Positions 1,246 to 27,083 are shown, counted from the stretch's first letter. The stretch: 30,291 bases of DNA from a virus (IMGVR_UViG_3300017749_003025:1-30291), one strand, 5' to 3'. The notes: generated by a model from the letters alone, not told the origin. Numbers and translations: made by a program.

Positions 1246-2544
1246 ATGGCAATGCCAAAAGTTAAAAAGAAGAAGCCTAGAGCGGCACCACGCATACAAC
1301 GCGGAGCAAAACTTAAGGAACCTTCATGGGAAGGCTGGGAAGAATGGACTGGTGAACAGATCCATAGGCATCGTAGACATACACATGCATGGTACTACGA
1401 ACACTTCAAGCCAGCGGACTTGTATACTAATGTTCCTAAGTGGATGGAACAAGACGATGACTTCTATTCTAAAGAAGATATTAAGGCAGTAAAGAACGCT
1501 CCTAATAGTGCGTTAAGTATTACAGCAGGTATTGTAGCACGTATGGATATGATGGGTGCGCCTAGACTAAACAAGAAAGAAGCAGAACATTGGAATAGCC
1601 TGCCAGGCACTAGTGGTGAACTAACTTGTGGTGTAGAACAATTCTTGCGAAGAAAAGTTGCAGAGGCAATTAAAATTGGTCTTGAAGTTGCGGAAGTAAA
1701 AGAAGAAGAAGAAAAAGAAAAGGTTAAAAAGTACGTACCAACCATTCAAGAGCGTATACAAGAACAGTGTCGTTCAATGTGTGAACCAATTGAAGATTGG
1801 TTAGAAGGTTGGGTAGAAGACCCAAAGTCATTTGATCCTGACGGATTAGACATTTCAAAACATCTTAAAAGAGTACAGTGTACACAAGCACATGCTAGAA
1901 AGATGAAACAATGGTACGAAGCAGAAATACAAGATTTTAACGAGTTAGATCGTATGCCAACAAAAGGACAGTTGGCTAAAATGAGCGAGCATGATGCTGA
2001 TATGTGGGAACAACTAAAAGAAGGTTACGCACATCTTAAAAAATCAGACATTGCTAAGATTAAAAAAGCAAATGCAAAACTTCTTAGTAACTTTGATATG
2101 ATTATTGACATGGCTAAAGCAACACGTAAACCACGTAAGGCTAAAGCAAGAAGTGCAAGTAAAGTAGTTGAAAAACTTAAATTCTGTAAAGCAGATGACA
2201 AGTATTCACTCGCATCAATTGATCCTACAAGCATTGTAGGTGCTAATGAGCTTTGGGTATTCAATATTAAGACCCGTAAAATAGGCAAATATATTGCAAG
2301 TAATATAGATCCTAAAGGACTTGCTCGAGAAGGCAGTGGACTTAGTGTTAAAGGCACAACTATTATTGGCTTTGATGAAGAACAAAGTATACAAAAGACT
2401 ATGCGTAAGCCTGTAGATCAGTTAAAAGAGTTTAAAGACTCGGGTAAAGTGAAACTACGTACATTCTTAGAAGACATCAAAACAACAGATACTAAACTAA
2501 ATGGTAGGTGTAACCCCGAGACAGTGCTTCTTAAAGTTGTTTGA
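1246..2544 (+). CDS. Conserved phage protein of unknown function, 432 residues
   Basis: Starts at ATG 1246 with a strong TAGGAG element 9 bases upstream; a second ATG two codons later is also possible. The N-terminus is very basic (KVKKKKPR), and the body is charged and mostly helical. There is an acidic-basic stretch (KEEEEKEKVKKY) near residue 155 and a cysteine pair in EQCRSMCEP near residue 175. The C-terminal 110 residues look globular, with motifs such as KFCKADDKYSLASIDP and ELWVFNIKTRKIGKYI. Similar proteins occur in marine T4-like phages as far as I recall, without assigned function. A nucleic-acid-binding role is possible from the basic N-terminus but is inference. It is expressed from a sigma70-like promoter, and its stop overlaps a late promoter for the next gene. 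Confidence 0.75.
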   Translation: MAMPKVKKKKPRAAPRIQRGAKLKEPSWEGWEEWTGEQIHRHRRHTHAWYYEHFKPADLYTNVPKWMEQDDDFYSKEDIKAVKNAPNSALSITAGIVARMDMMGAPRLNKKEAEHWNSLPGTSGELTCGVEQFLRRKVAEAIKIGLEVAEVKEEEEKEKVKKYVPTIQERIQEQCRSMCEPIEDWLEGWVEDPKSFDPDGLDISKHLKRVQCTQAHARKMKQWYEAEIQDFNELDRMPTKGQLAKMSEHDADMWEQLKEGYAHLKKSDIAKIKKANAKLLSNFDMIIDMAKATRKPRKAKARSASKVVEKLKFCKADDKYSLASIDPTSIVGANELWVFNIKTRKIGKYIASNIDPKGLAREGSGLSVKGTTIIGFDEEQSIQKTMRKPVDQLKEFKDSGKVKLRTFLEDIKTTDTKLNGRCNPETVLLKVV

Positions 2545-2550
2545 TAAATA
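2543..2550 (+). promoter_or_regulatory. T4-type late promoter (GATAAATA), leaderless geometry
   Basis: GATAAATA matches the T4-like late -10 element. In T4 the start site is the sixth base after the motif, here 2556, which is exactly the A of the next ATG. No Shine-Dalgarno is present between motif and ATG (CATAC only). The motif overlaps the TGA stop of the previous gene. Confidence 0.7.
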
Positions 2551-2555
2551 CATAC

Positions 2556-3677
2556 ATGAGCAATAAGAATGTAAGTGATCAAGAGTTATTACGCATTAAG
2601 CAAGGTCTAACAGACTTAGGCGATGCAGTATTTCAGCTATCAAGATCCCCGTCCCCAGAACCAACTGTTGGACCCAGAAGTTTAACAGGCGATGCAATTC
2701 ATGGCGGAATGATCACATCATTTGCCAGTCAAGGCATAAGAGATAATAGTGATAGACTTATAGTTGTAGTAGACAACGATGGTATTACTACAGATAACAT
2801 TGACGTTGAAAACATAGTAGGCAACACAAACGTTACAGGTAACTTAGTTGTTGAAGGTAGTGTTACTGCTCAAAAACTACACGTTGACGAACTTACAGCA
2901 GACATTAGACTAGAACGTTCTACTCCATTAGAGTTTGTTGCAAGTGCAAGTGACGACATATACCAAAAAGGTCTTATGTGGAAGAAAGAAGGTGCTTCAA
3001 AGCAGTTCGTTCTTCGTAGTGGACCAGATAGAATTTGGTCTTCAGAACCAATTGACTTACAAACAGGTGCATACTATTCAATAGATAGTATAAGTGTACT
3101 AAGCGGAAGTGAATTAGGACCAACAGTAACAAAAAGTTCCTTAACACAAGTAGGTGTTTTAAACAACCTAGCAGTTGATGGCAACTTTAACATTGATCAA
3201 TATGTGTTCTGGAACGGCGACTACATGCGTTTTGGTATTGGTACTGAAACACCAAACGGAACATTCGGCATAGTGCAAGACGATGCAGAATTTATTATTG
3301 ATACTGAAGGTAAAACAGCAACCTTTGGTACTTTCTCAACTGCTGACATTAACATTATCACAGATAATACTAAACGTATTAGTATAAGTGCTACAGGTAG
3401 AATTATACTTGGTAATGATAGTGATAGTAAAACTACTGTAAAAGGTAAGTTAGGAATAAACGTTGAGAATCCAACAGCAGATATAGAAACAGCAGGACCA
3501 GTTAGTTTTGATGGTAAGCGATTTGAAGTTTCTAGTGAAGCACCACTGAGTGGTTCATACCGTAAAGGTGATGTTGTGTGGAATTCAAATCCAAAGCCAG
3601 CAGGATATGTTGGATGGATTTGTACCCGCGAAGGAACTCCAGGAATTTGGAAGACCTTCGGACCTATTTCTTCATAA
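2556..3677 (+). CDS. Tail-fibre-like virion protein
   Basis: 373 residues starting with MSNKNVSDQELL; an in-frame TTG at 2541 is less likely because it lies inside the previous gene and the promoter. The first 60 residues are helical and low-complexity. They are followed by repeating beta-strand units typical of trimeric fibres (NTNVTGNLVVEGSVTAQKL; LGINVENPTADIETAGP). The C-terminus has the module GDVVWNSNP...GYVGWICTREGTPGIWKTFG, common at the ends of phage tail-spike and fibre proteins and often thought to aid trimerisation or receptor contact. The gene has its own late promoter, which fits a structural protein. Which fibre it belongs to, and its receptor, cannot be told from the sequence. 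Confidence 0.75.
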   Translation: MSNKNVSDQELLRIKQGLTDLGDAVFQLSRSPSPEPTVGPRSLTGDAIHGGMITSFASQGIRDNSDRLIVVVDNDGITTDNIDVENIVGNTNVTGNLVVEGSVTAQKLHVDELTADIRLERSTPLEFVASASDDIYQKGLMWKKEGASKQFVLRSGPDRIWSSEPIDLQTGAYYSIDSISVLSGSELGPTVTKSSLTQVGVLNNLAVDGNFNIDQYVFWNGDYMRFGIGTETPNGTFGIVQDDAEFIIDTEGKTATFGTFSTADINIITDNTKRISISATGRIILGNDSDSKTTVKGKLGINVENPTADIETAGPVSFDGKRFEVSSEAPLSGSYRKGDVVWNSNPKPAGYVGWICTREGTPGIWKTFGPISS

Positions 3678-3706
3678 TACTAGCAATTAATATTTGGCGC
3701 CAGGTC

Positions 3707-3714
3707 CATAAATA
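3707..3714 (+). promoter_or_regulatory. T4-type late promoter (CATAAATA)
   Basis: CATAAATA lies in the 85-base gap after the fibre-like gene. The predicted start at about 3720 gives a leader of about 43 bases to ATG 3763, the longest leader of the late promoters seen here. It should drive the two overlapping membrane-protein genes downstream. Confidence 0.65.
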
Positions 3715-3762
3715 CTTGTGGAGTTCGCCACTGAGCCTCCGTTAACAAAAGGCAAGAGAAAA

Positions 3763-4092
3763 ATGACAAAAAAAGAACACAAGGCAACCGAACAGGCAAT
3801 TGAAATACAAGTCGAGAGATGGGATTTATATGCCCGCATTACTCCAACTATATTTCTAATTATATCAATTATATTAATAGCAACAGGCATCATAGATTTT
3901 AAAACCGCATTCTGGCTAGGACTTGGAATGTTTGCCGTCACAGCAGTGACATGGTGGTTTTGGACTATATACACAATAAGACATCTGATAAGAACACTTA
4001 ATAGGGCAAGTAATAACATAGTCGAAGTTAAAGACGAGTTCATCAGTATTAAAAAAGAAGTTGAGGCTTTTAGGAGAGATAATGAACAATAG
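3763..4092 (+). CDS. Two-TM membrane protein with C-terminal helix, unknown function
   Basis: 109 residues starting at MTKKEHKATE; the frame is open further upstream, but this ATG is the first with a purine-rich element (AAGAG) before it. Two membrane segments are seen at about 26-44 and 50-70, separated by a short polar turn. A charged amphipathic helix, probably a coiled coil, occupies 72-105. Both termini are predicted on the cytoplasmic side. It overlaps the next membrane-protein gene by 11 bases and shares its late promoter, so the two may act together. Small two-TM proteins under late control include holins, but nothing specific to a holin family is seen, so that is only a possibility. 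Confidence 0.65.
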   Translation: MTKKEHKATEQAIEIQVERWDLYARITPTIFLIISIILIATGIIDFKTAFWLGLGMFAVTAVTWWFWTIYTIRHLIRTLNRASNNIVEVKDEFISIKKEVEAFRRDNEQ

Positions 4093-4564
4093 TCTAAAAA
4101 GATATATGTATGTTAAGGCCATGTTGAATGTAATTAGTGGACTTAGCATGGTAACAATTATATCATTAGGAATTGCGTATATGAGTTTTGACAATGCATT
4201 TGTATTTACAGATACGGAAATTAGCGTAGTAAACAATCCAATTGAAAACGATCAGGACATAGAGTTCTTTATGGTAGGCTCAAAGAAGTATCAGTGCAAC
4301 AGCACAGCCGCATATGGCGTAGCACATGCTGTAGACGGTTCACACTCACATAACCTAAACACATTTACAAAACGCTACATACAAGCAACAGCACCAGGCG
4401 AACGTGTAGAAAATGGTTGGCATATGAGAGTACCGGACGATATGCGACAAGGTGGCGAGTATCGTGTTAGTATGACAGGTGAATTTACATGCGTACACTT
4501 GATATTCAAAACACACAAAATACAAGTATTCGATAACATCTATTTAAAAGTAGACCCCCGCTAA
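4082..4564 (+). CDS. Single-pass membrane-anchored protein with extracytoplasmic domain
   Basis: 160 residues. ATG 4082 is preceded by TAGGAG 8 bases upstream, inside the end of the previous gene. A basic N-terminus (NNSLKRYMYVK) and one hydrophobic segment at about 14-34 indicate a signal anchor. The rest (about 36-160) should lie outside the cytoplasm. It contains two cysteines, one in KKYQCNSTAAYG and one in GEFTCVHLIF, that could form a disulfide, and alternating hydrophobic strands that suggest a beta-sandwich. I do not recognise a named family. Overlap with the two-TM gene and a shared late promoter suggest a paired envelope function, for example lysis or superinfection control, but this is inference. 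Confidence 0.65.
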   Translation: MNNSLKRYMYVKAMLNVISGLSMVTIISLGIAYMSFDNAFVFTDTEISVVNNPIENDQDIEFFMVGSKKYQCNSTAAYGVAHAVDGSHSHNLNTFTKRYIQATAPGERVENGWHMRVPDDMRQGGEYRVSMTGEFTCVHLIFKTHKIQVFDNIYLKVDPR

Positions 4565-4567
4565 ATA
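4560..4567 (+). promoter_or_regulatory. T4-type late promoter (GCTAAATA), leaderless geometry
   Basis: GCTAAATA overlaps the TAA stop of the preceding gene. Five bases (ATTTT) separate it from ATG 4573, so the T4-rule start site is the A of the ATG. No Shine-Dalgarno is present. Confidence 0.65.
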
Positions 4568-4572
4568 ATTTT

Positions 4573-5163
4573 ATGTACGTATTTGGAAACGGCGAAAGTC
4601 GCACCTCTATTGATATAGATAAACTCGATGGCCCAAAGATAGGATGTAACGCAATACATCGTGACTACCATATGGATCATTTAGTTTGTGTAGATAGGCG
4701 TATGGCACAAGAAGCAGTTGATGCAAACTTAAAACATACACAAATTTATACTAGAAAAGATTGGATATCTTGGTTCCCACAAGGAGTAACTACAGTTCCT
4801 GACTTACCATATGAAGGTAAACAAAGATGGGACGAACCTTTTCAATGGGGGAGCGGACCTTATGCTGTATTGCTGTCTGTAACGCTATATAACGACCGTA
4901 CAGCGCATCTTATAGGCTTTGACTTGCATAGTACTACTACAACTGTAAACAACGTATACAAGGGTACTAGCAACTACGACAAAGCAGACAAACGTCCTGT
5001 TGATCCTAGATACTGGATACATCAAATTGGTATGGTATTCAATTGTTTTCCTAATACACAGTTTAAAATACTAGTTAAAGACGACTGGACTTTACCAAAA
5101 GCCTGGACTCAACCTAATGTAAAGGTTGACAACATAAGTACTTTACTATATAATAAGATATAA
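4573..5163 (+). CDS. Rossmann-like protein resembling MptE/DUF115 and GT42-type proteins
   Basis: 196 residues. The N-terminus MYVFGNGESRTSID resembles the nucleotide-binding start 'GNGxSR/GPSL' of DUF115 (MptE-like) proteins and bacterial sialyltransferase-like proteins, followed by IGCNAIHRDYHMDHLVCVD, a second beta-alpha unit with a conserved Asp. Later motifs are QWGSGPYAVLLSVTLY and HLIGFDLHS, again like this fold (a helix leading to a strand ending in GFD). A nucleotide-sugar or pterin/pyrophosphate substrate is plausible by fold, but the actual reaction is not known. The late promoter gives it a predicted leaderless mRNA. It sits just before a pterin enzyme (queD-type) and a glycosyltransferase, and may share a pathway with either. 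Confidence 0.5.
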   Translation: MYVFGNGESRTSIDIDKLDGPKIGCNAIHRDYHMDHLVCVDRRMAQEAVDANLKHTQIYTRKDWISWFPQGVTTVPDLPYEGKQRWDEPFQWGSGPYAVLLSVTLYNDRTAHLIGFDLHSTTTTVNNVYKGTSNYDKADKRPVDPRYWIHQIGMVFNCFPNTQFKILVKDDWTLPKAWTQPNVKVDNISTLLYNKI

Positions 5164-5228
5164 CATTAACAGGACTTGGCGTCAACCCTTCTAACTCTGC
5201 CGCCCATATAATTATACAGGAGAATATT

Positions 5229-5678
5229 ATGGGAAAACATTTAAGCACAAAACATTATGGACACAACATTGGACTGTCAGCAGTCTTTAGACAGCCTAAT
5301 GCAGATCATTCGCATTGCCATTTGTTACATGGCTACAGTTTAGCGTTTACATTTACATTTGGTTGTGATGAACTAGACAATAAAAATTGGGCAGTTGACT
5401 TTGGCGGACTAAAGCCTTTGAAGAAGTGGCTAGAAGATCACTTTGATCATAAGACAGCAATTGATAAAAACGATCCGCACATGGACAAGTTTATGGAACT
5501 ACAAGAACTTGACCTAGCAGAGATTGTTGTAATGGATGGTGTTGGTGCAGAGAAATTTGCAGAACATGCATTTAACTTTGCAGATAAACTAGTACGTGAA
5601 ATGAGCGACAACCGTTGCTATTGCGTAAGAGCAGAATGTGCAGAGCACGGGGCAAACTCAGCAATATACGAGGGATAA
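5229..5678 (+). CDS. queD: 6-carboxy-tetrahydropterin synthase / 6-pyruvoyl-tetrahydropterin synthase family (QueD-like)
   Basis: 149 residues; ATG with TACAGGAG 8 bases upstream. QueD converts dihydroneopterin triphosphate to 6-carboxy-tetrahydropterin in the 7-deazaguanine (queuosine, preQ0) pathway. A His/Cys-rich motif at residues 27-36 (HSHCHLLHGY) carries the putative catalytic Cys30 and zinc-binding histidines. VDFGGLK (56-62), FDHKTAID (72-79) and the C-terminal EHGANSAIYEG are also family features. The canonical HGH zinc motif reads HGY here; I recall the same HGY variant in alphaproteobacterial homologues, so it is probably a subfamily trait rather than damage. Phages use this pathway for modified DNA bases or for tRNA queuosine. 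No queC, queE or folE is in the window. Confidence 0.8.
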   Translation: MGKHLSTKHYGHNIGLSAVFRQPNADHSHCHLLHGYSLAFTFTFGCDELDNKNWAVDFGGLKPLKKWLEDHFDHKTAIDKNDPHMDKFMELQELDLAEIVVMDGVGAEKFAEHAFNFADKLVREMSDNRCYCVRAECAEHGANSAIYEG

Positions 5679-5682
5679 GTCG

Positions 5683-6489
5683 TTGAAAAAGTACGTTGAA
5701 GGCGAGACAAAGGATCAACGTAAGCGCAGAAAAGCTCTTGAAAAAATGGCAAGAGATGATGCTCCACAAATTAATTCAAATAAAAAATACTATGTGTTGT
5801 GCTTAAAGCATGGCACAAAGTACTCTGCTGATTATGTAAACAAACTATACAATATGGTCGAACGTAATTGTACACTTGACTATGAGTTTGTTTGCTTAAC
5901 AGAAGATCCAGGTGGATTAAATCACAACATAAGAGTTATACCATTACCAGGACACTTACAAGGTTGGTGGTGTAAGCCTTATATGTTTACAAAAGACTTA
6001 CCTATCAATGGTACTGTATTATATATGGACCTTGATGTAGTTATATCAGCAAATATAGATAAACTGTTTACATACAGTCCGGGACATTGGTGTACTATAA
6101 GAGACTTTACTCGTGTTATGCGTAAAGGTTGGCAGAAGTATAATTCAAGTGTTGTTAGATATGAAGTAGGACAACTTGATCACGTATGGACAGAGTTTCA
6201 AAAGGATCCAATTGCAATACAAAAAAGGTTGCATGGAGACCAAGATTGGTTGTTCGAATCAACTCGAAAGACTCAAGCAATGTTATATCCAGATAGTTGG
6301 ATACAAAGTTGGAAATGGGAAGTTAGACAAAGCCGATCATTTGCACATGGCGGCATACGAGGAAATAAAAAGTTCGAAATAGAAGAACATGATGCAGTAC
6401 CTAGAGTAGAGTGTTGTATTTGTGTGTTTCACGGAGACCCACAACCGTCAAATGTAACAGATAAATGGGTGGTTGATAATTGGCGTTGA
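5683..6489 (+). CDS. GT-A-fold glycosyltransferase-like protein
   Basis: 268 residues from TTG 5683, chosen because a GAGGGA element lies about 10 bases upstream and the earlier in-frame ATG would overlap queD by 40 bases. A charged N-terminal tail (KKYVEGETKDQRKRRK) precedes a Rossmann-like start (YYVLCLKHGTKYSADYV). The metal-binding DxD motif is at residues 116-118 (YMDLDVVI), typical of GT-A enzymes that transfer sugar from a nucleotide donor. GDQDWLF is the usual downstream acidic motif. Donor and acceptor are unknown; candidates are phage DNA, a virion protein or a host surface glycan. It directly follows queD (4-base gap), probably in one operon. Confidence 0.7.
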   Translation: MKKYVEGETKDQRKRRKALEKMARDDAPQINSNKKYYVLCLKHGTKYSADYVNKLYNMVERNCTLDYEFVCLTEDPGGLNHNIRVIPLPGHLQGWWCKPYMFTKDLPINGTVLYMDLDVVISANIDKLFTYSPGHWCTIRDFTRVMRKGWQKYNSSVVRYEVGQLDHVWTEFQKDPIAIQKRLHGDQDWLFESTRKTQAMLYPDSWIQSWKWEVRQSRSFAHGGIRGNKKFEIEEHDAVPRVECCICVFHGDPQPSNVTDKWVVDNWR

Positions 6490-6514
6490 CAAACTTTAAG
6501 AAACGTGTTATACT
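6486..6514 (+). promoter_or_regulatory. sigma70-type promoter upstream of uvsE
   Basis: TTGACA at 6486-6491 (perfect -35), a 17-base spacer and TATACT at 6509-6514. The predicted start at about 6521 lies 118 bases before uvsE. It overlaps the first codons of the 49-residue ORF at 6486, so if that ORF is expressed it must be read from an upstream transcript. Confidence 0.7.
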
Positions 6515-6635
6515 ATTTAAACAATGGTACAAACAACTACGACAACACCCACACTATGCATGGTACAACTGTGTACAGTGGGCATGGTCAAACTCAGGCA
6601 CACACGAGCTAGACGGCTCATACAGGAAATGGTAA
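6486..6635 (+). CDS. Possible 49-residue aromatic-rich protein
   Basis: TTG start overlapping the glycosyltransferase stop (TTGA), end three bases before the uvsE ATG. The product is basic and rich in Trp/Tyr/His (FKQWYKQLRQHPHYAWYN, then QWAWSNSGTHELDGSYRKW). That composition is unlike random AT-rich DNA and fills the gap between two genes with coupling at both ends. There is no strong ribosome-binding site, and a sigma70 promoter overlaps its start. It is therefore either a coupled small gene or a chance ORF in a leader region; I lean slightly towards real. Confidence 0.5.
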   Translation: MTNFKKRVILFKQWYKQLRQHPHYAWYNCVQWAWSNSGTHELDGSYRKW

Positions 6636-6638
6636 CTT

Positions 6639-7775
6639 ATGGATCTTAAATTTACAACAGCAGGAGACTTTTTGAAATCACAAGAAGACATTCAGCGCAT
6701 TGGCTTTGCTTGCAAATACATGCATCCAGACCAATCGCAGAAGAAGAAACTACTAGAAGAAATTCAACGCCCACTAAATACTCGTAGCACAACAGTACAA
6801 TGGCTTAACAGGCAAACTGTTGATGTAGCCGAGCAACGTTTGTGGGACATCATGGTCCATAACATTGCCGCATACAAAAGGTTGATTGAATATGTTGGAT
6901 CACTTCCTCCACAACTTAGAATGGTACGACTCGGTTCTGATGTTCTTCCTGTTTATACCCAGCATGAGTGGTCTTATTATTGGCGTAAGCCTGACGTTCG
7001 TGCATACTGTGAAACAGAATTTGCAAAAGTCGGCGACACGGCAAGAGCCCTTGATGTGCGACTATCGATGCATCCAGGTCAGTTCACAGTGCTTGCCAGT
7101 GATAACCCGGAAATTGTAGAACGTAGTATAGAGGAGTTTGAATATCATGTGGATTGCATCAGGTGGATGGGTTACGGACAATCATTCCAAGACTTCAAGT
7201 GTAACGTACACATCTCAGGCAGACAAGGTCCAGCCGGCATCAAGGCCGCACTCAAGAGACTCACGCCAGAAGCGAGAAATGTTATCACAATCGAGAACGA
7301 CGAAAACAAGTGGGGACTTGACGCAAGCCTCGAACTTGCAGACGACCTTGCATTGGTACTCGACATACACCATCACTGGTGCCGTGAAGGTGAATATATA
7401 CAGCCCACCGACGATAGATTTGCTCGCGTAATAGATAGTTGGCGTGGTGTGCGTCCTGCAATACATTATTCATACAGTCGTAACGAAGCATTGCCCGAAG
7501 GCTTTGCACACGATACTATGCCTGATATGCCAGCACTACTAGAAGCAGGCTACAAGAAAGCAAAACTACGAGCGCACAGCGACTACTATCCTAACCAAAT
7601 TGTCAATGACTGGGCTTTGAGCTTCTTGCCTTACACAGATATTATGTGCGAGAGCAAATGTAAGAACCTTGCTAGTATTGACTTATATAAATACAAAGAG
7701 GAATTAGAACACTATGAGTTATTTGAATCAAATGTACGGACGTCAGTCCAAGAACACAGCGCCATCAGCGGATAA
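6639..7775 (+). CDS. uvsE: UV damage endonuclease (UvsE/UVDE)
   Basis: 378 residues. UVDE is a metal-dependent TIM-barrel endonuclease that nicks DNA 5' of UV photoproducts and starts an alternative excision repair. Seen here: RIGFACKYMHPD at 20-31, HPGQF at 145-149, NVHISG at 189-194, TIENDENKWG at 217-226, the metal-binding LDIHHHW at 241-247, and a further His in AIHYSYS at 274-280. These are the expected metal-ligand positions of the UVDE family. Length is slightly above the usual 300-350. AGGAAAT upstream serves as a weak ribosome-binding site. T4 itself uses DenV for this job, so this is a non-homologous replacement. Its end overlaps the next gene by 62 bases and carries that gene's late promoter. 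Confidence 0.9.
   Translation: MDLKFTTAGDFLKSQEDIQRIGFACKYMHPDQSQKKKLLEEIQRPLNTRSTTVQWLNRQTVDVAEQRLWDIMVHNIAAYKRLIEYVGSLPPQLRMVRLGSDVLPVYTQHEWSYYWRKPDVRAYCETEFAKVGDTARALDVRLSMHPGQFTVLASDNPEIVERSIEEFEYHVDCIRWMGYGQSFQDFKCNVHISGRQGPAGIKAALKRLTPEARNVITIENDENKWGLDASLELADDLALVLDIHHHWCREGEYIQPTDDRFARVIDSWRGVRPAIHYSYSRNEALPEGFAHDTMPDMPALLEAGYKKAKLRAHSDYYPNQIVNDWALSFLPYTDIMCESKCKNLASIDLYKYKEELEHYELFESNVRTSVQEHSAISG
7686..7693 (+). promoter_or_regulatory. T4-type late promoter (perfect TATAAATA) inside the end of uvsE
   Basis: TATAAATA is an exact T4 late consensus. It lies 21 bases before ATG 7714, within the last codons of uvsE. The predicted start at about 7699 leaves a 15-base leader that begins with AGGA. 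Confidence 0.7.
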
Positions 7776-7995
7776 AAATCCCAACAGAGTTACAGGCGGA
7801 CTAAAAGCACAAGGTGTTGACCGCTTTACTATGCTCGGCGAAGATGGTACACAACAAGAGGTACCGTCACTCTCATACGTAACTAGTTTGGAAGAGCAGT
7901 CAAGAAAACAGCGAGCGGCTATTACTGTATTAGAGCGTAAGCTAACTCGCTGTGAAACTGCTATAGAGCAGTTAAAAGGCCTTATTAGGCCTTAA
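7714..7995 (+). CDS. Small protein with C-terminal coiled coil, unknown function
   Basis: 93 residues, overlapping the end of uvsE by 62 bases. The first half is polar and low in hydrophobics (MSYLNQMYGRQSKNTAPSA). The second half (about 52-90) is a heptad-like helix: TSLEEQSRKQRAAITVLERK and LTRCETAIEQLKGLIRP. A late promoter lies just upstream, so it is probably made late, perhaps as a minor virion or assembly factor, but no family is recognised. Its stop codon lies in a small palindrome shared with the convergent gene on the minus strand; the two ORFs overlap by 11 bases. Confidence 0.7.
   Translation: MSYLNQMYGRQSKNTAPSADKNPNRVTGGLKAQGVDRFTMLGEDGTQQEVPSLSYVTSLEEQSRKQRAAITVLERKLTRCETAIEQLKGLIRP
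7976..7993. terminator. Possible bidirectional terminator between convergent genes
   Basis: AAGGCC (7976-7981), loop TTATTA (7982-7987), GGCCTT (7988-7993): a perfect 6-bp stem lying on both stop codons of the converging genes. There is no clean T-run in either direction, so terminator function is uncertain. Confidence 0.35.
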
Positions 7996-8260
7996 GTCTA
8001 CTTAAAATTTCACTCTTAGAAAGACTTGCATTGGCTTTAACGCCACGTTGCTTTGCCTCTTTAAGGAGTTGAGTTTTAGTTAACTTATCGAAATCACATT
8101 TACCTGAACCTTTCTTCTTAGTAGAAGTCTTCTTGGTTGTTGCTTTTTTCTTTGTCGAAGCCTTAGGTTTTGGCTCAGCTGGTATTTCTTCTGGAAATAC
8201 TTCCTCAATAATATTGGGTACTGTTGCTCTACCTAAGATCTTGTTTATCCATTTAAACAT
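7985..8260 (-). CDS. Small basic protein with SAP-like C-terminal motif
   Basis: 91 residues read on the minus strand. The start at 8260 has a perfect GGAGG Shine-Dalgarno 7 bases upstream, so longer upstream versions are rejected. Layout: an N-terminal amphipathic segment (MFKWINKILGRA), an acidic/proline stretch (EEVFPEEIPAEPKPK), a lysine-rich linker (STKKKATTKKTSTKKKGSGK), and a C-terminal 35-residue helix-extended-helix reading LTKTQLLKEAKQRGVKANAS then LSKSEILSRLKA. The last part matches the SAP/Rho-N pattern (Leu-x-x-x-Ala-x-x-x-Gly, then K-x-E-I/L-x-x-L), a DNA- or RNA-binding fold. A nucleic-acid-binding role is therefore likely but unproven. It is one of only two minus-strand genes here. 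Confidence 0.75.
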   Translation of the reverse strand: MFKWINKILGRATVPNIIEEVFPEEIPAEPKPKASTKKKATTKKTSTKKKGSGKCDFDKLTKTQLLKEAKQRGVKANASLSKSEILSRLKA

Positions 8261-8283
8261 AATTTTCCTCCTATAGGAACATA

Positions 8284-8291
8284 TATTTAAT
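8284..8291 (-). promoter_or_regulatory. Possible late promoter for the minus-strand SAP-like gene
   Basis: On the minus strand the sequence reads ATTAAATA, one base off the late motif, 23 bases before the start codon at 8260. It overlaps the plus-strand late promoter at 8289-8296 by three bases, so the two would form a back-to-back divergent pair. Confidence 0.4.
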
Positions 8292-8296
8292 AAATA
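8289..8296 (+). promoter_or_regulatory. T4-type late promoter (AATAAATA)
   Basis: AATAAATA with a predicted start at about 8302 and a 16-base leader containing CAGGAGAAG before ATG 8318. It should drive the run of three small plus-strand genes at 8318-8937. Confidence 0.65.
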
Positions 8297-8317
8297 CATT
8301 ACACAGGAGAAGCAAAT

Positions 8318-8509
8318 ATGGCTCAAAGAAAAGTATCAAGAGTATTCAATAAAGGTGAACTAACACTAGACAAAGTAGTTGGTGTAAGGCCTGATAATAC
8401 AAATCAATTTATTAAGGCACCACTTAGAAAGGATACAACTTTTCGTAGAGGCGTACCTTCAATGAAGACCGTTGCAAATGAAACTGCTGACGGATTTAAG
8501 AAAAACTAG
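8318..8509 (+). CDS. Small basic protein, unknown function
   Basis: 63 residues with a strong CAGGAG site 9 bases upstream and a late promoter. The product is basic (MAQRKVSRVFNKGELTLDKV at the N-terminus, then charged turns with FIKAPLRKDTTFRRGVPS) and has no membrane segment. I do not recognise a family. Late timing and positive charge would fit a minor structural or DNA-binding protein, but nothing more specific can be said. Confidence 0.65.
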   Translation: MAQRKVSRVFNKGELTLDKVVGVRPDNTNQFIKAPLRKDTTFRRGVPSMKTVANETADGFKKN

Positions 8510-8518
8510 GAGTAATTT

Positions 8519-8683
8519 ATGACTAACTGGATAAAAGCAAGAATTGACGAGCGTACATCTTGGGATGGAGCCGCTCTTATTGCAGTAGGTGTTATTGTAT
8601 TGATTGCAGGACCTTTTGCTAAATTAGCCGCATACGGTGCTATTGCATACGGTGCTTGGACTATTTGGAAAAAAGAAGACTAA
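8519..8683 (+). CDS. 54-residue membrane protein
   Basis: ATG 8519 with CTAGGAGT 8 bases upstream; the stop is followed after two bases by the next ATG. The N-terminus is polar (MTNWIKARIDERTSWDGA), followed by two closely spaced hydrophobic segments at about residues 18-32 (ALIAVGVIVLIAGPF) and 36-48 (LAAYGAIAYGAWTIW), and a charged end (KKED). It may be a hairpin membrane protein with both ends cytoplasmic. Similar tiny proteins occur in marine T4-like phages as far as I recall, without assigned role. It is in one late unit with its neighbours. Confidence 0.7.
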   Translation: MTNWIKARIDERTSWDGAALIAVGVIVLIAGPFAKLAAYGAIAYGAWTIWKKED

Positions 8684-8685
8684 TA

Positions 8686-8937
8686 ATGTTAGTAGGAAAA
8701 TATGATTTCACATATGTAAATTCAGGCAATGTTAGAACATTGCCTGGTGGGTTTACTAAGCCATTATTTAATATTACAATAACAGATACTGAAACTGATA
8801 CTACAATTGAAGTTGATGATGTTGTAGAGGTGTTTGAACGTGAAGATTGGTTAGATACTATCTATACCAACAGTAAAAGAGCATGTGATAACCCAGACGA
8901 CGAAGCATGTTGCTATAAAACAGCACGTTACGTCTAA
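8686..8937 (+). CDS. Small acidic protein, unknown function
   Basis: 83 residues from ATG 8686, two bases after the previous stop; an upstream in-frame TTG is less likely because it lies inside the previous gene. The sequence is beta-rich and acidic (FNITITDTETDTTIEVDDVV), with a cysteine cluster near the C-terminus (CDNPDDEACCYKTARYV) that might bind a metal. A perfect 9-bp hairpin lies inside the coding region near the 5' end. No family recognised. Its stop overlaps the convergent minus-strand zinc-ribbon gene by four bases. Confidence 0.65.
   Translation: MLVGKYDFTYVNSGNVRTLPGGFTKPLFNITITDTETDTTIEVDDVVEVFEREDWLDTIYTNSKRACDNPDDEACCYKTARYV
8723..8746 (+). other. Strong intragenic hairpin
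   Basis: CAGGCAATG (8723-8731), loop TTAGAA, CATTGCCTG (8738-8746): a perfect 9-bp stem with a 6-base loop, 37 bases inside the gene starting at 8686. It could slow ribosomes, stabilise or process mRNA, or act as an attenuator; there is no U-run after it (GTGGGTTTACT follows). Confidence 0.6.
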
Positions 8938-9221
8938 AGTTTACTAATATCTAAACCACTAGACGCAGGCATATCCCAGATGTTTTTCTTGGTTACGCCC
9001 ATCTTTTGTGCAAATTTCTTTGCATCACAATTCTTACATACATGAAAATAGTTGTTCGAAATACGTTTAGGATCCATTGATCCTCTTGGACGTTCGAACT
9101 CTGTATTACAATTATCACAACGCATTACTACTAATGTTACATCACGACTATAGGTATGTTCCTTGCCGGTTTTACTTTTACGAACGTGCCTGGTTTGTGA
9201 TTTAAATTCTCTTATAAACAT
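8934..9221 (-). CDS. Zinc-ribbon-like protein, unknown function
   Basis: 95 residues on the minus strand, starting MFIREFKSQTRHVRKSKTG. Two CxxC pairs, CDNC in VMRCDNCNTEF and CKNC in YFHVCKNCDAK, are separated by about 27 residues: a classical zinc-ribbon spacing. Between them is a basic segment with PRGSMDPKRISNN. The C-terminus (NIWDMPASSGLDISKL) is well formed. I recall similar proteins in marine T4-like phages, with no known role; nucleic-acid binding is the usual role of such ribbons. The late-like motif TGTAAATA lies five bases before the start, giving a predicted leaderless mRNA. A longer frame upstream exists but is hydrophobic and unsupported. Confidence 0.7.
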   Translation of the reverse strand: MFIREFKSQTRHVRKSKTGKEHTYSRDVTLVVMRCDNCNTEFERPRGSMDPKRISNNYFHVCKNCDAKKFAQKMGVTKKNIWDMPASSGLDISKL

Positions 9222-9226
9222 AACTA

Positions 9227-9234
9227 TATTTACA
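9227..9234 (-). promoter_or_regulatory. Possible late promoter (minus-strand TGTAAATA), leaderless geometry
   Basis: On the minus strand TGTAAATA is followed by TAGTT and then ATG at 9221, the same five-base spacing as at 2543 and 4560. The second base differs from the common A/C. Confidence 0.45.
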
Positions 9235-9254
9235 TTAAGATTATAAAAACATAG

Positions 9255-9262
9255 ACTAAATA
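9255..9262 (+). promoter_or_regulatory. T4-type late promoter (ACTAAATA)
   Basis: ACTAAATA with a predicted start at about 9268 and a 12-base leader that begins with AAGGAG before ATG 9280. It may also serve the giant structural gene at 9679, which has no clear late motif of its own. Confidence 0.65.
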
Positions 9263-9678: not shown

Positions 9679-12600
9679 ATGGCAAAACAAGACGTAAACA
9701 TTGGTGTAGAAGGTAACGACGGTACAGGCGATTCAATTCGCGAGTCGTTTCGTAAGGTAAACGAAAACTTTAATGAATTATATGCAGTATTTGGCGAAGG
9801 TGGCCAAATATCACTTACAGACTTAGGTGACATTGCAATTGACTCGTTTGAAAACTTTCCAAGTACAGACTCAGCGCCAGTTATGGCAGGTATCAATAAT
9901 GATACACAAGGTAGTAAATTAGAGTTTTTTAGATTTGCTTCAGATAAATTTATAGATCCTACACTAGATGATAGTATTGCATTTGATGCAAGTAGAATAG
10001 ACGACGATGGCAGACCTGTTATTGTTGTTAGAGCAGTCAAAAGTGACTTAGCAAGTGATAGTGCTCCAACACTAGGCGGAAACTTAGACATGGCTGGAAA
10101 CTTTGTTGCATACAATCCAGCGCCAGCAAATACTTGGAAACAAAAAGCAGAAGACAACGGCTACACCATTGACGATGTTCTTATTACTAAAGGTTACGCA
10201 GACTCCAATTACTTAAAAGGTGGTGGTACTGGAACAGGATCACAACTAAGAGTTAGAACAGAAGATGAAATATCTACTGAGGATTATACATTTACAATTA
10301 ATAGTTACACTAGTGGTAACGCAGTTATTAATGACAGATATATTGATGGTGTATTAACAACAGGACAAGGACACGGCTTTGATAGTTCAGCAAATGGTGC
10401 TTCCTTTACATACAGTTCAACATTAACATCAGCAATAGACCAAACAAGTACAAAAGCATTAACAGATTTAACAGAATTTCCTACTGGTACATTCTTTGTA
10501 AGAGTTGTTAGTGATACACAACTTGGCTTATACAGAACTAAAACAGACGCAGAAGCAGGAACAAATAAATTAAATGTAGCAGGCGGTACTGGTACACAAC
10601 AATTAGCAGACTTTTATTATCAGCCTAAAAAATTAACAGGCGACTTCCTTGCTAACGAAGCAATACCAAGAGAAAGCATTGTCCGTAGACAAGGTGATCA
10701 AATGGCAGGCAAATTATACTTGGAAGATCATCCAGGTGAACTTGCAGGCATAGGTACTCCTAATGGTATAGAAGATTTACAAGCGGCATCAAAATTTTAT
10801 GTAGACAACACAAGTTTTGCTTCAAACATTAATTTGTTTGTTAGTACAACAGGTGATGACACACAAGCATCAACACCTCCGGGCAAAGAAGGACGTTCAC
10901 TAGCATATGCATATAGATCAGTAAACGCCGCGGCACGTAGAGCAGAAGAAATTGTTGTATCAAGTCCAGTAGAACCTGGTCCATACATGCAGAAAATTGA
11001 GTACGGTGCTAATGCACAATCACTTGTATCATCTAAAATTTATAGTGCAGACTTTAAAGCAGGTGAAAGAGCAGATTACGGAGCATCAACTGAAAAGTTT
11101 AACTCACTTGTTATTCAAAACAAAGACTTTGTTATTGCAGAAACAATTAAATGGGTAAGTTTACAAATTGCAACAGCAAATGCTGACCTTACACTTACTG
11201 AAAGTGATCCAACTTATATATGGAAAAACTTTGCATACAACGAAGCAATATGTGCAAGAGACTTAGGTTACATTATTGATGCAGGTAGACTTGATACACG
11301 TTCAAGTACAACAGCAAACAAATTATCAAGAAGTGCTGGTTTAAGATACTACAGTAATTCAAGTGGTAGACTTGCTGTTACTACACAAGAAGCACAAACT
11401 ATTGCAACAATTAACAAAGCAAAAGAACTTTTTGAATCTTACATTTTAATTAACACAGCATATCCAAATCCACTTAACGCAGATTACGATCAGTTTTTTG
11501 ATGTTGGTTTAGTTGACGCACCAAGTGCGGCTATTGATGTGTTCAGTGCTAAGATTGGTATTGTTACAAACATTATTGACAATGGTATTGACTCAGCACC
11601 AGCACTAAGAGAAGGTGCTCCATATGTACTTAGAATTACCAATGGCGGTAATGACAGTGTATGGCAAGGTAAAGATTTAAACACAGACCTTATACCAGGT
11701 AAAGTTGTAACAGGCTCACGTAGTGGTGCTATTGGTAGAATTATTACATACAGTAATGATATTAATGATGCTACTAACACAGACGAACTAGAACTAATAC
11801 TTGAAGAACCATTTGAGTTTTTAGTTGACGGTGCTGGTAGAGATATTCAAAACGTTGAAGTTTCAGATTCGTTAGGTGACGAACTAGAATACGGTAACAG
11901 AGTTAGTCAAAAACAAATTACTATTAAAGTTGAATCAGGTATTTACGAAGAAGACTATCCAATTAAAGTAAGCTCACAAGTTTCAGTTGTTGGTGACGAG
12001 ATGAGACGTGCAATTATACGTCCAAAGAATCGTGTATCACAATCTAAATGGGCAAACACTTATTTTTATCGTGACAAATACTTTGATGGCTTAACACTAC
12101 ACAGCAACACAGTAACGTTTGCAGACGAGGTTGCTCTTACACTTGCTGGCGGTACGTTAACAGCATACAAAGGTGATATACTTACACAAACAAGTACGTT
12201 TACATACAACGAAGCAAAGTGTAGACGTGACATACAATATATTTTAGAACAAGCAGGGTTTGATATTGTACTAGGTACAAACTATAACCAGATTGTTCAA
12301 GGTCTTGCATATCAAAACACAAGTGCAGGCGTTGTACAAGCAAGTCAATTACAACAAGAATTAGCGTCAATTGGATTTGCAGGCAACAGAGTAGCATTAT
12401 TAGATGACGTTGCAGACAACACTTCAGCATTAAGTAGATCAAGAGCATACTTTGCTACTGTACTTGATCTTATTGAAAATGGTAACACAGATGAAAACAG
12501 TGTTAACAGTCCAGGTGACGGTAACTATGTTGCTGACATTACAAGTACACTTGTATTCCCAGACTTTAACGGTGTTGATTCAAACAAAGTTGCGGCAAGA

Positions 12601-21600: not shown

Positions 21601-21936
21601 CCAGGTACAGTATTAGTATTTGGTGGCGACAATGAAGTTACAATTTGTACAGCAAAAGGTGATCGTAAGGTTGCAGGTGTTGTTTCAACAGATCCTGCAT
21701 ACTTAATGAACAATGCACTAAAAGGTGATACAGTTGTTGAACTGGCACTAACAGGGCGTGTACCTTGTAAAGTTATTGGCACTGTTGAAAAAGGTGACAT
21801 GCTTGTAACAAGTGCAATACCAGGTTATGCAATGGTTGATAATGATCCTAAACTAGGTACAGTAATTGGTAAAGCAGTCGAAAGCAAAGACAGCGATGGC
21901 AAAGGTGTCATTGAAGTAGTTGTAGGACGTATGTAA
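9679..21936 (+). CDS. Giant tail-fibre/baseplate-type structural protein (4085 residues)
   Basis: One uninterrupted frame; GGAG lies about 11 bases before the ATG. Residues 10-40 carry the signature EGNDGTGDSIRESFRKVNEN shared with the next structural protein, probably a virion anchor. About 140-180 is fibre-like (PTLGGNLDMAGN). About 385-1770 looks like a beta-helix with pectate-lyase-like turns (ESGIYEEDYPIKVSSQVSV near 750; NDATIIRNCTVQGHGG near 1510). It is interrupted by three copies of a Cys-Arg-Asp...Tyr-Ile motif near 515, 840 and 1385. Seven loose copies of a 'TQ..TGA.G.V' beta module occur at about 670, 1317, 1936, 2154, 2642, 2887 and 3045. SYAVEQYIDRRLGFDRN is at 2458. The C-terminal domain (about 3960-4085: DLAEKYVGDQAYEPGTVLVF) resembles the end domains of other tail fibres, possibly a chaperone-like peptidase G2 relative. 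Probably host-recognition or glycan-binding; exact virion place unknown. Confidence 0.85.
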   Translation: MAKQDVNIGVEGNDGTGDSIRESFRKVNENFNELYAVFGEGGQISLTDLGDIAIDSFENFPSTDSAPVMAGINNDTQGSKLEFFRFASDKFIDPTLDDSIAFDASRIDDDGRPVIVVRAVKSDLASDSAPTLGGNLDMAGNFVAYNPAPANTWKQKAEDNGYTIDDVLITKGYADSNYLKGGGTGTGSQLRVRTEDEISTEDYTFTINSYTSGNAVINDRYIDGVLTTGQGHGFDSSANGASFTYSSTLTSAIDQTSTKALTDLTEFPTGTFFVRVVSDTQLGLYRTKTDAEAGTNKLNVAGGTGTQQLADFYYQPKKLTGDFLANEAIPRESIVRRQGDQMAGKLYLEDHPGELAGIGTPNGIEDLQAASKFYVDNTSFASNINLFVSTTGDDTQASTPPGKEGRSLAYAYRSVNAAARRAEEIVVSSPVEPGPYMQKIEYGANAQSLVSSKIYSADFKAGERADYGASTEKFNSLVIQNKDFVIAETIKWVSLQIATANADLTLTESDPTYIWKNFAYNEAICARDLGYIIDAGRLDTRSSTTANKLSRSAGLRYYSNSSGRLAVTTQEAQTIATINKAKELFESYILINTAYPNPLNADYDQFFDVGLVDAPSAAIDVFSAKIGIVTNIIDNGIDSAPALREGAPYVLRITNGGNDSVWQGKDLNTDLIPGKVVTGSRSGAIGRIITYSNDINDATNTDELELILEEPFEFLVDGAGRDIQNVEVSDSLGDELEYGNRVSQKQITIKVESGIYEEDYPIKVSSQVSVVGDEMRRAIIRPKNRVSQSKWANTYFYRDKYFDGLTLHSNTVTFADEVALTLAGGTLTAYKGDILTQTSTFTYNEAKCRRDIQYILEQAGFDIVLGTNYNQIVQGLAYQNTSAGVVQASQLQQELASIGFAGNRVALLDDVADNTSALSRSRAYFATVLDLIENGNTDENSVNSPGDGNYVADITSTLVFPDFNGVDSNKVAARDKLQANKPFIKTEIIAHINNDTTPPAGFDSDMEDLLEQNIGRWTDALTYNILYGGNDAASTQARLYFTDTSLNINGTYQTVVKAAITHFKTIVTDILTGVTRSGATGNDNTDGINDQVVSGDNASATEGSEAQSLLDIIYNAVNNQTLPTGVTLPTSALNAADISQALRDAKGDIDTNIASGDASVNIIDLTIDFINSNTDSRAVVQEDVVNGTAVVVTYNDGYNPAGANFSASPQFNLTDDLKLNGALQSGLKVASADTTNTKDFDMGWHYASDSRKPINTNSALSVNNLGNRINASLILAENKINIQEDIYDWMDIQATAAQTAGFGTWAETTIVFTGTVTAVKGETMTQATTGASGKVKDDPINAAGKTTVVLVSPTTIFNTANQLTGSESGSHGAAGVPESVNVGKFSFTTKCKRDIGYIVDALANDLTKGRNDASMQVQGLYYEGAVEVGQEEITTQAISRIATVCESLLNVAGIQEPNGTVLTTWKTNFAAAEDGSSGVVTNLINTITYAFNPEYNPPIHNRDMDVFLMNDATIIRNCTVQGHGGFMTVLDPAGQILTKSPYIQTGSSFSQSVNKQAFRGGMFVDGFNGNMPLEIVGRKNGNNFRLFARSKRSQVQVNGVGVGHGLFVRRPEVPAPFYVNGIRYQVNSIINHDQENGTCELILDDNSGVKDGNGNGLGWEGPVTHYTLVNDVRTPQYGQSENYTTVLQTAGNRSQLGNDFTQINDLGYGLLVTNTGLSEMVGMFTYYCHAAYYANNGSEIRSVGGSNAYGNFGLVAAGSDPNEVPQSGELAYNTVQTAKVYRNESAQFEAEEQQNYVYVYDTDFIPLPEGEIDITFAERTALVSFTGTNTVEVTGHGYETGTKVTIENTVGVTGLNDDHYINRVDANTFTIFSDAALTSARNFSGSLSTLGAIIPADEAGTDVRKYEVVNVIPAIVEDLIPAVNQQEFTLSGAVKAHYGDTVTQETTGAIGKVVRPQRTSNVDGVVVGGTTLFISQADSPAALFNTSDKIKITDVYSNTDTTEFTDNITINTIDSSSDTSGLPLKGGNGAVWKITFSNQTSDSTSATGGLAQQLYGGESVVIRTRAKVIFDNVESTDIRPSTAVVLSEGSKVYRSLAFNEQAISSWGDTADQTLPSGFNLVTFDDNYKYILATVAKSKFESQVKLTLGAGVAVTRGDVVTQGSASGVVTESQAGATVIYLSDWNGTSFTTSSITINATSTTVTDIVEFSNTTTFGATAGDTKVALTSPVTDADSLGRLNSGSMIFGWKDRVHVVVAYHDGEGNTQGTPAAGTQLTGFPYFEVGAAALVDKNTQVNPTPPGTGIARPLDIGSTQQVVLSVGAQDGIGASITVNISLNRATGHDFSNIGTGGFNTSNYPNILFGNPSEAKAEAYTNSDVAEKSQVWERGKGRVFVMSTDEDGFFRVGKFFEVDQGTGTVKFAAQINISGLDGLGFRDGETISKFTGDNGMSPIDNSTVPTSYAVEQYIDRRLGFDRNMNVKAALLGDGFLPQKNPILTITRDSNNNPNHTLNMQSGRLVQLADPTDDLDATTKQYVDKRVFANDEVQELKDIELNDISFEDDYGKNDLLVLTGNRRVYVKQTIGNPDDWRIGQLITGVASETAAYIEDLEAKTLDNGEEIYVLTYSPLQITSIQTSGANNNLTAQRGFTVTQSGTGATGEILWEQDQSTTNENRQVTQGNEIRLINTTGTFVAGNSANVLTITDLFGTAVSTTVYPLSITIPTVSDFSNEKIENTDGAYGNTTGGFDGAVVTTTLEFANASESNLSGDGVPGSTTRSDVNIAVERIRGTMDSNGQLLDPGSTKVNLQLQAQSIINADVNNEADIIQSKLDMNNAPVLTNSNNFEDASTAGQRTKQANQGLAAFNADVFAEDQIWTLQGADVTAFIASLAVNDVITQTAGAKEAYVVATDTGVNQIKVRVSTAFTIGNAGANRLTRISINQSDYTQDADAQSNTTINTILNTGFINVKDRGITFDKIQDLPEKTLIGRADIDFDGEQEGAGESGIARAIPFSLVVDEGGGLQDKDFNDSVLTKVSGTIIVTTGELTLPDGTNITQVGNTGATGTIQGAVNTENELVLVDTAGTFNTTGQLQIVSGSALGTQSVPTSVITSQNLLGSALVKIRDGVYGSSIISKTGSDDSIVRTLKNGDTISGVDNTLNLGGWINPRGLLVDSRRVLDTQSDTLSIYTPNDHLSIQIEGTAPSANTPLSDKSTVSIPNASVQIGSTTILKDPINYGGFAGNFQQNTEGPTQSNSEPYLVTPWVYTNYIQAPGELTSEGTGISIGAGGRHTGLKEIGLVVAGYTDAFKVKETEILLGTNEVTRVKILNGSTSVYNSFNIVDGTDVKFSVAGNTGNTSIVGTLGVTDAVTANAGITVDDSVFDGNKISRTNGDFEIETVTVAPGTGGDIILNPAGENVIFKDGTDERLNFATTEDAQELTTQGAFTIDVNGTEKAFTVEATGNIVLDAELDIELNANGGDVVIKDATADIFKFANTANGLNLDYLEQDKILSIRGNDAGTMFDALTFDMENDGNAQFSNNVLIDNDLTVTGNVAFNGNIELGNAVTDTITTNAIITDEVLELRLDDNGAAGFNLKFQKTTDNVAGGDDLGVITFQSNGAVSTTLDQIKSTITANATEVTNSGERSNIVFATASGVSTTANRLVISDTITSSANIVANNTETLGTSGTPWSKAYVTDNYGTHHGDIKDSSGNVIVDVGTVLAGSDANASVFYGKFNGPLTGGVDTAGVADTLQSSQEDGTATDADVYPLWVTSNPAHTSRTGHAAFTTANFKLNPSNGNLTLNGQLGADTINIGSSNLSSIGLLTADIYASDGTSKILEAGTDGDDATFTGDVTGQVSSLSNHDTADLSEGTNLYYTDTRVSTYLSNNNYATTTDVANAVSNGASANIAVSNTNSSASDYFITFTDSNGASQSLSIDKDGGNGLKYRPSDSTLTATNFSGTASSANFADLAEKYVGDQAYEPGTVLVFGGDNEVTICTAKGDRKVAGVVSTDPAYLMNNALKGDTVVELALTGRVPCKVIGTVEKGDMLVTSAIPGYAMVDNDPKLGTVIGKAVESKDSDGKGVIEVVVGRM

Positions 21937-21942
21937 TAAATA
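21935..21942 (+). promoter_or_regulatory. T4-type late promoter (AATAAATA)
   Basis: AATAAATA overlaps the TAA stop of the giant gene. The predicted start at about 21948 leaves a 14-base leader with GCGGAG before ATG 21962. Confidence 0.65.
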
Positions 21943-22694: not shown

Positions 22695-22702
22695 GATAAA
22701 TA
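22695..22702 (+). promoter_or_regulatory. T4-type late promoter (GATAAATA)
   Basis: GATAAATA with a predicted start at about 22708 and a 17-base leader carrying AAAGGA before ATG 22725. Confidence 0.7.
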
Positions 22703-25686: not shown

Positions 25687-25694
25687 GATAAATA
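25687..25694 (+). promoter_or_regulatory. T4-type late promoter (GATAAATA)
   Basis: GATAAATA with a predicted start at about 25700 and a 17-base leader carrying CAGGAG before ATG 25717. Confidence 0.7.
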
Positions 25695-26549: not shown

Positions 26550-27080
26550 ATGCTTATGAAAACAGACTCTTTCGGTATCCCACGATTCTCTAACAAGGAT
26601 CTAGTAGATATGATCTATACAGGACATGCAGACAAAGTGCATGTAGTTCTGTGCGATCCAAGTGATGACGTGGAACAATTTAATAAGGCAATGGAAGAAC
26701 AAGGCCTTAACAAATTACAAAAATATATTCCATTAGATGTAGATCAACAGACTTTTGACGGTGTATGTCAAAGTGAATGGTTTATGCCTGATGAATACAA
26801 AGACATTAATGTATATGAATATGTACTAGGCAAAGCAGAAACACCCTGCCCACAACACGTACAAGATCGTATATGGGAAGAAATGGAAGCATATGGCGAA
26901 CGTGATATGCACAATCTATTACGCTATATGATATATCTTGTAGACTTTATGCGTGAGAATGATATTGTATGGGGTGTAGGTAGAGGTAGTTCAGTAGCAT
27001 CATATGTACTGTACATAATAGGAGTACACAAAATAAACTCAATCCAATATGACCTGGATTGGCGTGAGTTCCTTAGATAA
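26550..27080 (+). CDS. Short DNA polymerase III alpha (DnaE/PolC)-like protein lacking the catalytic aspartates
   Basis: 176 residues (or 174 from the second ATG). The last 40 residues (IVWGVGRGSSVASYVLYIIG, then VHKINSIQYDLDWREFLR) match the DnaE segment '[37 protein letters not shown]'. That segment lies directly before the catalytic PDFDID motif; here the protein ends right there, so it cannot be a polymerase. The upstream region (YGERDMHNLLRYMIYLVDFM) corresponds to the helix that precedes this loop in DnaE. Such proteins recur in marine T4-like phages as far as I recall. Possible roles are binding of DNA or the host replisome, or interference with host Pol III; none is shown. No clear ribosome-binding site. 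Confidence 0.7.
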   Translation: MLMKTDSFGIPRFSNKDLVDMIYTGHADKVHVVLCDPSDDVEQFNKAMEEQGLNKLQKYIPLDVDQQTFDGVCQSEWFMPDEYKDINVYEYVLGKAETPCPQHVQDRIWEEMEAYGERDMHNLLRYMIYLVDFMRENDIVWGVGRGSSVASYVLYIIGVHKINSIQYDLDWREFLR

Positions 27081-27083
27081 ATA
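27076..27083 (+). promoter_or_regulatory. T4-type late promoter (GATAAATA)
   Basis: GATAAATA overlaps the TAA stop of the DnaE-like gene. The predicted start at about 27089 leaves a 22-base leader with TTAGGAG before ATG 27111. Confidence 0.7.

Follow-up and report, generated by a model that had tools for sequence, protein, structure and literature searches.

Leaderless mRNAs number 375 in Caulobacter and 171 in Sinorhizobium (PMC4117421, PMC3616915), and as a rule they start with AUG (PMC3616915). Among phages, the lambda cI mRNA is the classic example of a transcript that is translated without a leader (cited in PMC9031893). In phage T4, the late promoter octamer begins at position -13, as conveyed by the phrase 'A(-13) in place of T' (PMC2988020). 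Because the first base of the octamer lies at -13, its last base lies at -6 and transcription begins on the sixth base after TAAATA. Thus, the start falls on the A of the ATG when exactly five bases separate the hexamer from the start codon.

The DNA considered here is a 30,291-nt stretch of viral sequence (IMGVR_UViG_3300017749_003025:1-30291), hereafter called the window, that carries three late-type promoters joined to start codons in this arrangement. It is very likely that T4-late-like promoters fused to ATG yield leaderless late mRNAs in this phage and its relatives, beside a class of late messages with Shine-Dalgarno (SD) leaders, and that homologous genes switch between the two. In the proposed mechanism, TAAATA occupies positions -11 to -6 relative to genes A, B, and C, and RNA polymerase would begin on the A of the ATG. 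We infer the start at the sixth base from T4; expression late in infection and recognition by a cognate sigma factor are likewise presumed. The predicted mRNA would carry neither a 5' leader nor an SD, and ribosomes would load at the 5'-terminal AUG. The same promoter type would drive a second late class with SD-bearing leaders of 10-20 bases; one kind of promoter would serve two modes of translation initiation, and homologous genes would move between these modes.

Late-type promoters and gene starts in the window

The features that form the three predicted leaderless units are as follows.

2543..2550, plus strand: promoter A, late-type GATAAATA, overlapping the TGA stop of the upstream gene (2542-2544)
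2556..3677, plus strand: gene A, a tail-fibre/virion-structural-like protein, predicted leaderless, with five bases from TAAATA to ATG
4560..4567, plus strand: promoter B, late-type GCTAAATA, whose own TAA (4562-4564) doubles as the stop of the upstream gene
4573..5163, plus strand: gene B, phrog_30607, predicted leaderless, with a MYVFGNGES N-terminus conserved from the ATG
9227..9234, minus strand: promoter C, late-type TGTAAATA, divergent from the late promoter at 9255
8934..9221, minus strand: gene C, a 95-aa protein, predicted leaderless, zinc-ribbon-like with two CxxC pairs (CDNC/CKNC)
9230..9248, minus strand: conserved block TTTTATAATCTTAATGTAA, which overlaps promoter C and extends upstream of it

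The original prediction held that three promoters each lie five bases before an ATG and that none is accompanied by an SD, and both statements are borne out, with the sites exactly where they had been placed. Promoter A is followed by CATAC and the ATG at 2556 (plus strand), promoter B by ATTTT and the ATG at 4573 (plus strand), and promoter C (9234-9227, minus strand) by TAGTT and the ATG at 9221. At A, B, and C, the bases that separate the promoter from the ATG contain nothing SD-like, and there is no other TAAATA-5-ATG in the window. Matches to TAAATANNNNNATG in the window are limited to these three promoters, and a reversed control pattern gave 0. When the 28 TAAATA positions were shifted circularly, TAAATA-5-gene-start hits had a mean of 0.014, and at least three arose by chance with P ~5e-5. 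Gene C is divergent, and its transcription must therefore begin within the short gap between the genes. Genes A and B may also gain expression from read-through RNA that originates in upstream genes.

The block TTTTATAATCTTAATGTAA, which sits between promoter C and the divergent promoter of gene 9280, is single-copy per contig. It is nearly invariant in about 70 relatives whose proteins are 61-100% identical, and it includes an exact match to TATAAT as well as a start and a stop codon paired as ATG-TAA.

The other late-type promoters in the window precede genes at greater distances.

3707..3714, plus strand: late-type promoter CATAAATA, 43-base leader, gene 3763
7686..7693, plus strand: late-type promoter TATAAATA, SD class, 15-base leader, gene 7714
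8289..8296, plus strand: late-type promoter AATAAATA, SD class, gene 8318
8284..8291, minus strand: late-type promoter ATTAAATA, SD class, sharing bases with the divergent promoter at 8289, gene 8260-7985
9255..9262, plus strand: late-type promoter ACTAAATA, SD class, gene 9280
21935..21942, plus strand: late-type promoter AATAAATA, SD class, gene 21962
22695..22702, plus strand: late-type promoter GATAAATA, SD class, gene 22725
25687..25694, plus strand: late-type promoter GATAAATA, SD class, gene 25717
27076..27083, plus strand: late-type promoter GATAAATA, SD class, gene 27111

Distances from promoter to ATG at the remaining intergenic TAAATA sites are 17, 19, 20, 21, 22, 22, 23, 27, and 48 bases, which correspond to leaders of 12-22 and 43 bases given transcription start on the sixth base. 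These values match the leaders of 12-22 bases, with one of about 43, that had been proposed for the other late genes. The accompanying claim that such leaders carry a clear GGAG holds for most of them but not for every one; the leader from the promoter at 22695 has AAGGA, and the 43-base leader before gene 3763 has no more than a weak GAGA-type sequence.

Two further features of the window can be recorded. At 8284-8296, divergent AATAAATA (plus strand) and ATTAAATA (minus strand) overlap within TATTTAATAAATA, with SD leaders on both sides. From 9679 to 21936 there is one 4085-aa open reading frame, which probably encodes a very large virion or tail protein.

Promoter spacing in relatives, whole contigs, and cultured phages

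Searches of IMG/VR with the A, B, and C proteins supplied relatives of the three genes, and their upstream regions show that the five-base spacing is conserved, contrary to what would have refuted the original prediction. For gene C, TAAATA lies 4-5 bases before the ATG in 77 of 83 relatives (69 at 5, 8 at 4), and the other 6 lack TAAATA. A gene C variant with three bases inserted upstream (ATGTAATAAATATAATT-ATG) still has a distance of 5, and two gene C relatives without TAAATA read CTAAGTATATGT-ATG, with TAAGTA at 5. Gene B relatives have a spacing of 5 in 41 of 66 cases, retained despite quite different upstream sequence, and two more have spacings of 37 and 41; in the other 23, the nearest 60 bases are free of TAAATA, and expression appears to rely on transcription from upstream. 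Among 63 gene A relatives, 34 have a spacing of 4-5 (33 at 5, one at 4) and 26 have a spacing of 20-27 with AGGA, with none at 6-19. Gene A occurs in a leaderless form, TGATAAATACTTAC-ATG, and in an SD-leader form, TGATAAATACTGTATAACAAACAGGAATTTATCA-ATG. Quick gene trees indicate at least five changes of promoter class in gene A and at least 11 in gene B. The spacing is kept across proteins down to about 50% identity.

Some SD-form relatives of gene A, such as that at G003 98453 (minus strand), carry an inverted repeat, TTGTGATAAAT...ATTTATCACAA, in which the promoter forms one arm and the SD lies in the loop.

Ascertainment bias that might come from fetching sequences by genes A-C was checked by reading five contigs and the cultured phages in full. 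The five large contigs, of 96-237 kb, belong to the clade of the window, and the sites in them were not picked by way of genes A-C. Genes were called simply as the longest open reading frames with ATG starts, which has a slight effect on the counts; the contrast with permuted hexamers used the same gene calls and is therefore unaffected by the calling method. TAAATA lies 4-5 bases before the ATG of 19, 8, 6, 9, and 7 genes in the five contigs, compared with means of 0.7-2.3 for other T2A4 hexamers at that distance, and where the top-scoring permutations exceed background, part of their surplus probably reflects these same sites displaced by one or two bases. The TAAATA-ATG distance is bimodal, at either 4-5 or 15-25 bases, with 6-14 near background. 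This two-class distribution, present in the five contigs and in cultured Pelagibacter phages, agrees with the proposal that late genes fall into messages with short SD leaders and leaderless messages. The missing spacings of 6-9 fit what is expected if a message needs either no leader or one of SD length.

Among cultured phages, the Pelagibacter phage HTVC008M has 11 genes at a spacing of exactly 5, and the independently annotated GenBank starts agree. In KC465899, the 11 ATGs are at 6280, 7562, 11972, 16007 (minus strand), 18916 (minus strand), 18943, 19456, 31132, 49760, 75830, and 142360. These genes include homologues of gp2, gp4, gp48, gp25, and gp3, whose products are a DNA end protector, a head completion protein, a tail-tube-associated baseplate protein, a baseplate wedge protein, and a tail completion protein, respectively. 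TAAATA-5-ATG genes number six in Mosig EXVC030M, which like HTVC008M is a Pelagibacter myophage, and three in Melnitz, a Methylophilales phage. Elsewhere, there are two in P-SSM4 and one in Ochrobactrum phage OC, which are too few to call, a single site at chance level in T4, and none in RB49 or Syn9. Because T4, RB49, and Syn9 lack the class, it can be ruled out that the trait is general to T4-like phages. The lineages that show it are marine, and for two of them the isolation host was an alphaproteobacterium.

The start codons of the HTVC008M gp2 and gp4 homologues (18890-18960) face each other over 26 bp that contain both leaderless promoters, and the pair forms a very compact bidirectional late unit.

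Evidence for a start on the A and alternative readings

Several marks distinguish the two classes. SD-like tetramers occur at -16 to -5 in 3 of 62 genes with spacings of 4-5 and in 70 of 80 with spacings of 15-25. The start codon is ATG in 63 of 63 genes of the 4-5 class (clade plus HTVC008M), whereas GTG and TTG are present in other classes. A count of the base at -1 was made after duplicates were removed, since G004 and G005 share near-identical stretches, and 60 distinct leaderless-class sites remained, including those of HTVC008M and Mosig. A pyrimidine occupies -1 in 59 of these 60 versus 50 of 89 in the SD class (P 7e-10), and in 42% of other genes. The -1 pyrimidine, the exclusive use of ATG, and the absence of SDs are three independent marks that fit a start on the A. 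Furthermore, a spacing of 4 accompanies a C directly after TAAATA (23 of 28), and in SD-class promoters with that C the commonest pyrimidine-A step also lies one base earlier. It therefore appears that the ATG moves with the start site, through this one-base shift as well. In Syn9, SD-class sites have a purine at the sixth base after the octamer in 18 of 18 cases, consistent with a start there.

The most serious alternative, of fairly low probability, accepts that the promoters are real and holds that starts scatter by one or two bases, such that the messages have leaders of 0-2 bases and are near-leaderless rather than strictly leaderless. A spacing of 4 does exist, in eight gene C relatives, six relatives of gene 3763, and seven genes of contig G001, and some sites in family A have two pyrimidine-A steps, at the fourth and sixth bases. 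However, whether the spacing is 4 or 5 goes with the identity of the base that follows TAAATA, and the position of the pyrimidine-A step in the SD class varies with that base too; distances of 6-9 are rare. It is far less probable that TAAATA-5-ATG is no promoter and acts instead in translation, as an A/U-rich signal within RNA that comes from further upstream. Two of the three sites do overlap the stop of a same-strand upstream gene, but gene C has no upstream gene on its own strand, and the extended motif [GC]A-TAAATA also precedes SD genes, at 15-25 bases. The exact spacing is that of promoter geometry, and the arrangement is absent from T4, RB49, and Syn9 although all three employ this promoter.

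The fused ATG might also be misread as the start, with the true codon further downstream behind an SD, because any open reading frame has internal ATGs. This is highly improbable, as residues are conserved from this very ATG (MYVFGNGES in B, M[FY]I.E[FY] in C) and tblastn matches begin at residue 1; on the strength of the conserved N-termini and the GenBank starts of HTVC008M, misassignment was rejected. Lastly, AT-rich DNA will occasionally put TAAATA near an ATG, and TATAAATA with one mismatch is no more frequent in the window than in shuffled sequence. Even so, the probability of chance placement is negligible in view of the value obtained for the window (P ~5e-5), the spacing conserved over 60-80 diverged relatives per gene, and counts at precisely this distance that far exceed those of 14 permuted hexamers, so that conservation and the permuted-hexamer controls exclude it. 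Leaderless transcription from a fused late-type promoter is the reading we prefer, and the exact spacing across very distant relatives looks like a second, deliberate way to start late translation.

Late factors, bS21, and comparison with known systems

In the clade of the window, a TATAAATA-like octamer is found at -13 to -6 before late or virion genes. A gp55 homologue was sought by single-sequence, profile, hmmsearch --max, HMM-HMM, and motif searches, and none was found in 15 clade contigs (up to 237 kb, possibly incomplete), whereas the same method gave clear hits in HTVC008M, T4, Syn9, phiM12, and Cr30; gp55 is present also in Mosig and Melnitz. One candidate, G001:141042-141806, was rejected, with E 0.19 and a match that covers only a low-specificity C-terminal stretch. 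Searches with Sigma70_r2 and phrog_12791 gave no match in the clade. Either the clade has a gp55 that the assembled sequence misses, or TAAATA is recognized there by a different factor. Thus, of the original designation of this transcription as T4-type, the motif and spacing stand and gp55 was not found, and the promoters are called T4-late-like and not gp55-dependent. Other T4-like parts in the clade are a clamp loader (gp44 homologue, window 29997+ and G001 186305), a gp32-like SSB, a gp41-like helicase, and a tail sheath stabiliser; gp45 was not detected among clade protein families of at least two members.

In phages of Bacteroidetes, the phage-encoded ribosomal protein bS21 is made late and is considered to have a role in initiation (PMC9723584). 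The complete surveyed phages with the leaderless class, HTVC008M (91237-91392), Mosig, and Melnitz, have bS21 genes, as do five of the 15 partial clade contigs (G001, G002, G006, G008, and G012). Both bS21 and a clear leaderless class are absent from the 11 reference phages surveyed (T4, Syn9, P-SSM4, S-ShM2, KVP40, RB49, pf16, OC, S-H9-2, phiM12, and Cr30). It is conceivable, albeit doubtful, that bS21, or some other late ribosomal change, moves initiation from one class of late mRNA to the other, SD-led or leaderless with a 5' AUG. If true, this would be a regulated two-channel translation program in which the leaderless class is favored or timed separately. Given the small sample and the relatedness of the phages, the association is a lead only.

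The reading offered here predicts exact 5' ends that are directly testable in cultured Pelagibacter phages, and in the annotation of very abundant marine phages it would mark start sites precisely. Moreover, the occurrence of gene A in leaderless and SD forms is a natural experiment on the choice of initiation mode.

T4-type late transcription and leaderless translation are each known, and a conserved late-gene class in phages that fuses both, with promoter and start codon locked together across wide divergence, was not found in searches of the openly licensed literature. These searches also yielded no description of leaderless late promoters in T4-like phages, cyanophages, or pelagiphages, and none of HTVC008M, Mosig, or Melnitz as leaderless. 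The T4 late promoters (TATAAATA, gp55/gp33/gp45-dependent) share the octamer and its geometry (-13 to -6) with the clade of the window, and the likeness extends to promoters before virion genes and the presence of SD-leader late genes. However, T4 and RB49 differ in that the TAAATA-4/5-ATG class is absent from them (one chance-level site and none, respectively). Alphaproteobacterial leaderless mRNAs have a 5'-terminal AUG, no SD, and AUG only, as predicted for the class in the window, but they come from host genes and host promoters and are not a late set of phage genes served by a single promoter type. Similarly, lambda cI differs in being one regulatory gene whose promoter is of the host sigma-70 kind, outside any late structural class. 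HTVC008M, Mosig, and Melnitz resemble the window in having TAAATA five bases before gene-start ATGs, and they encode recognisable gp55 and bS21, yet they differ from its clade in their smaller genomes (~141-147 kb) and distant protein similarity (34% for gene B).
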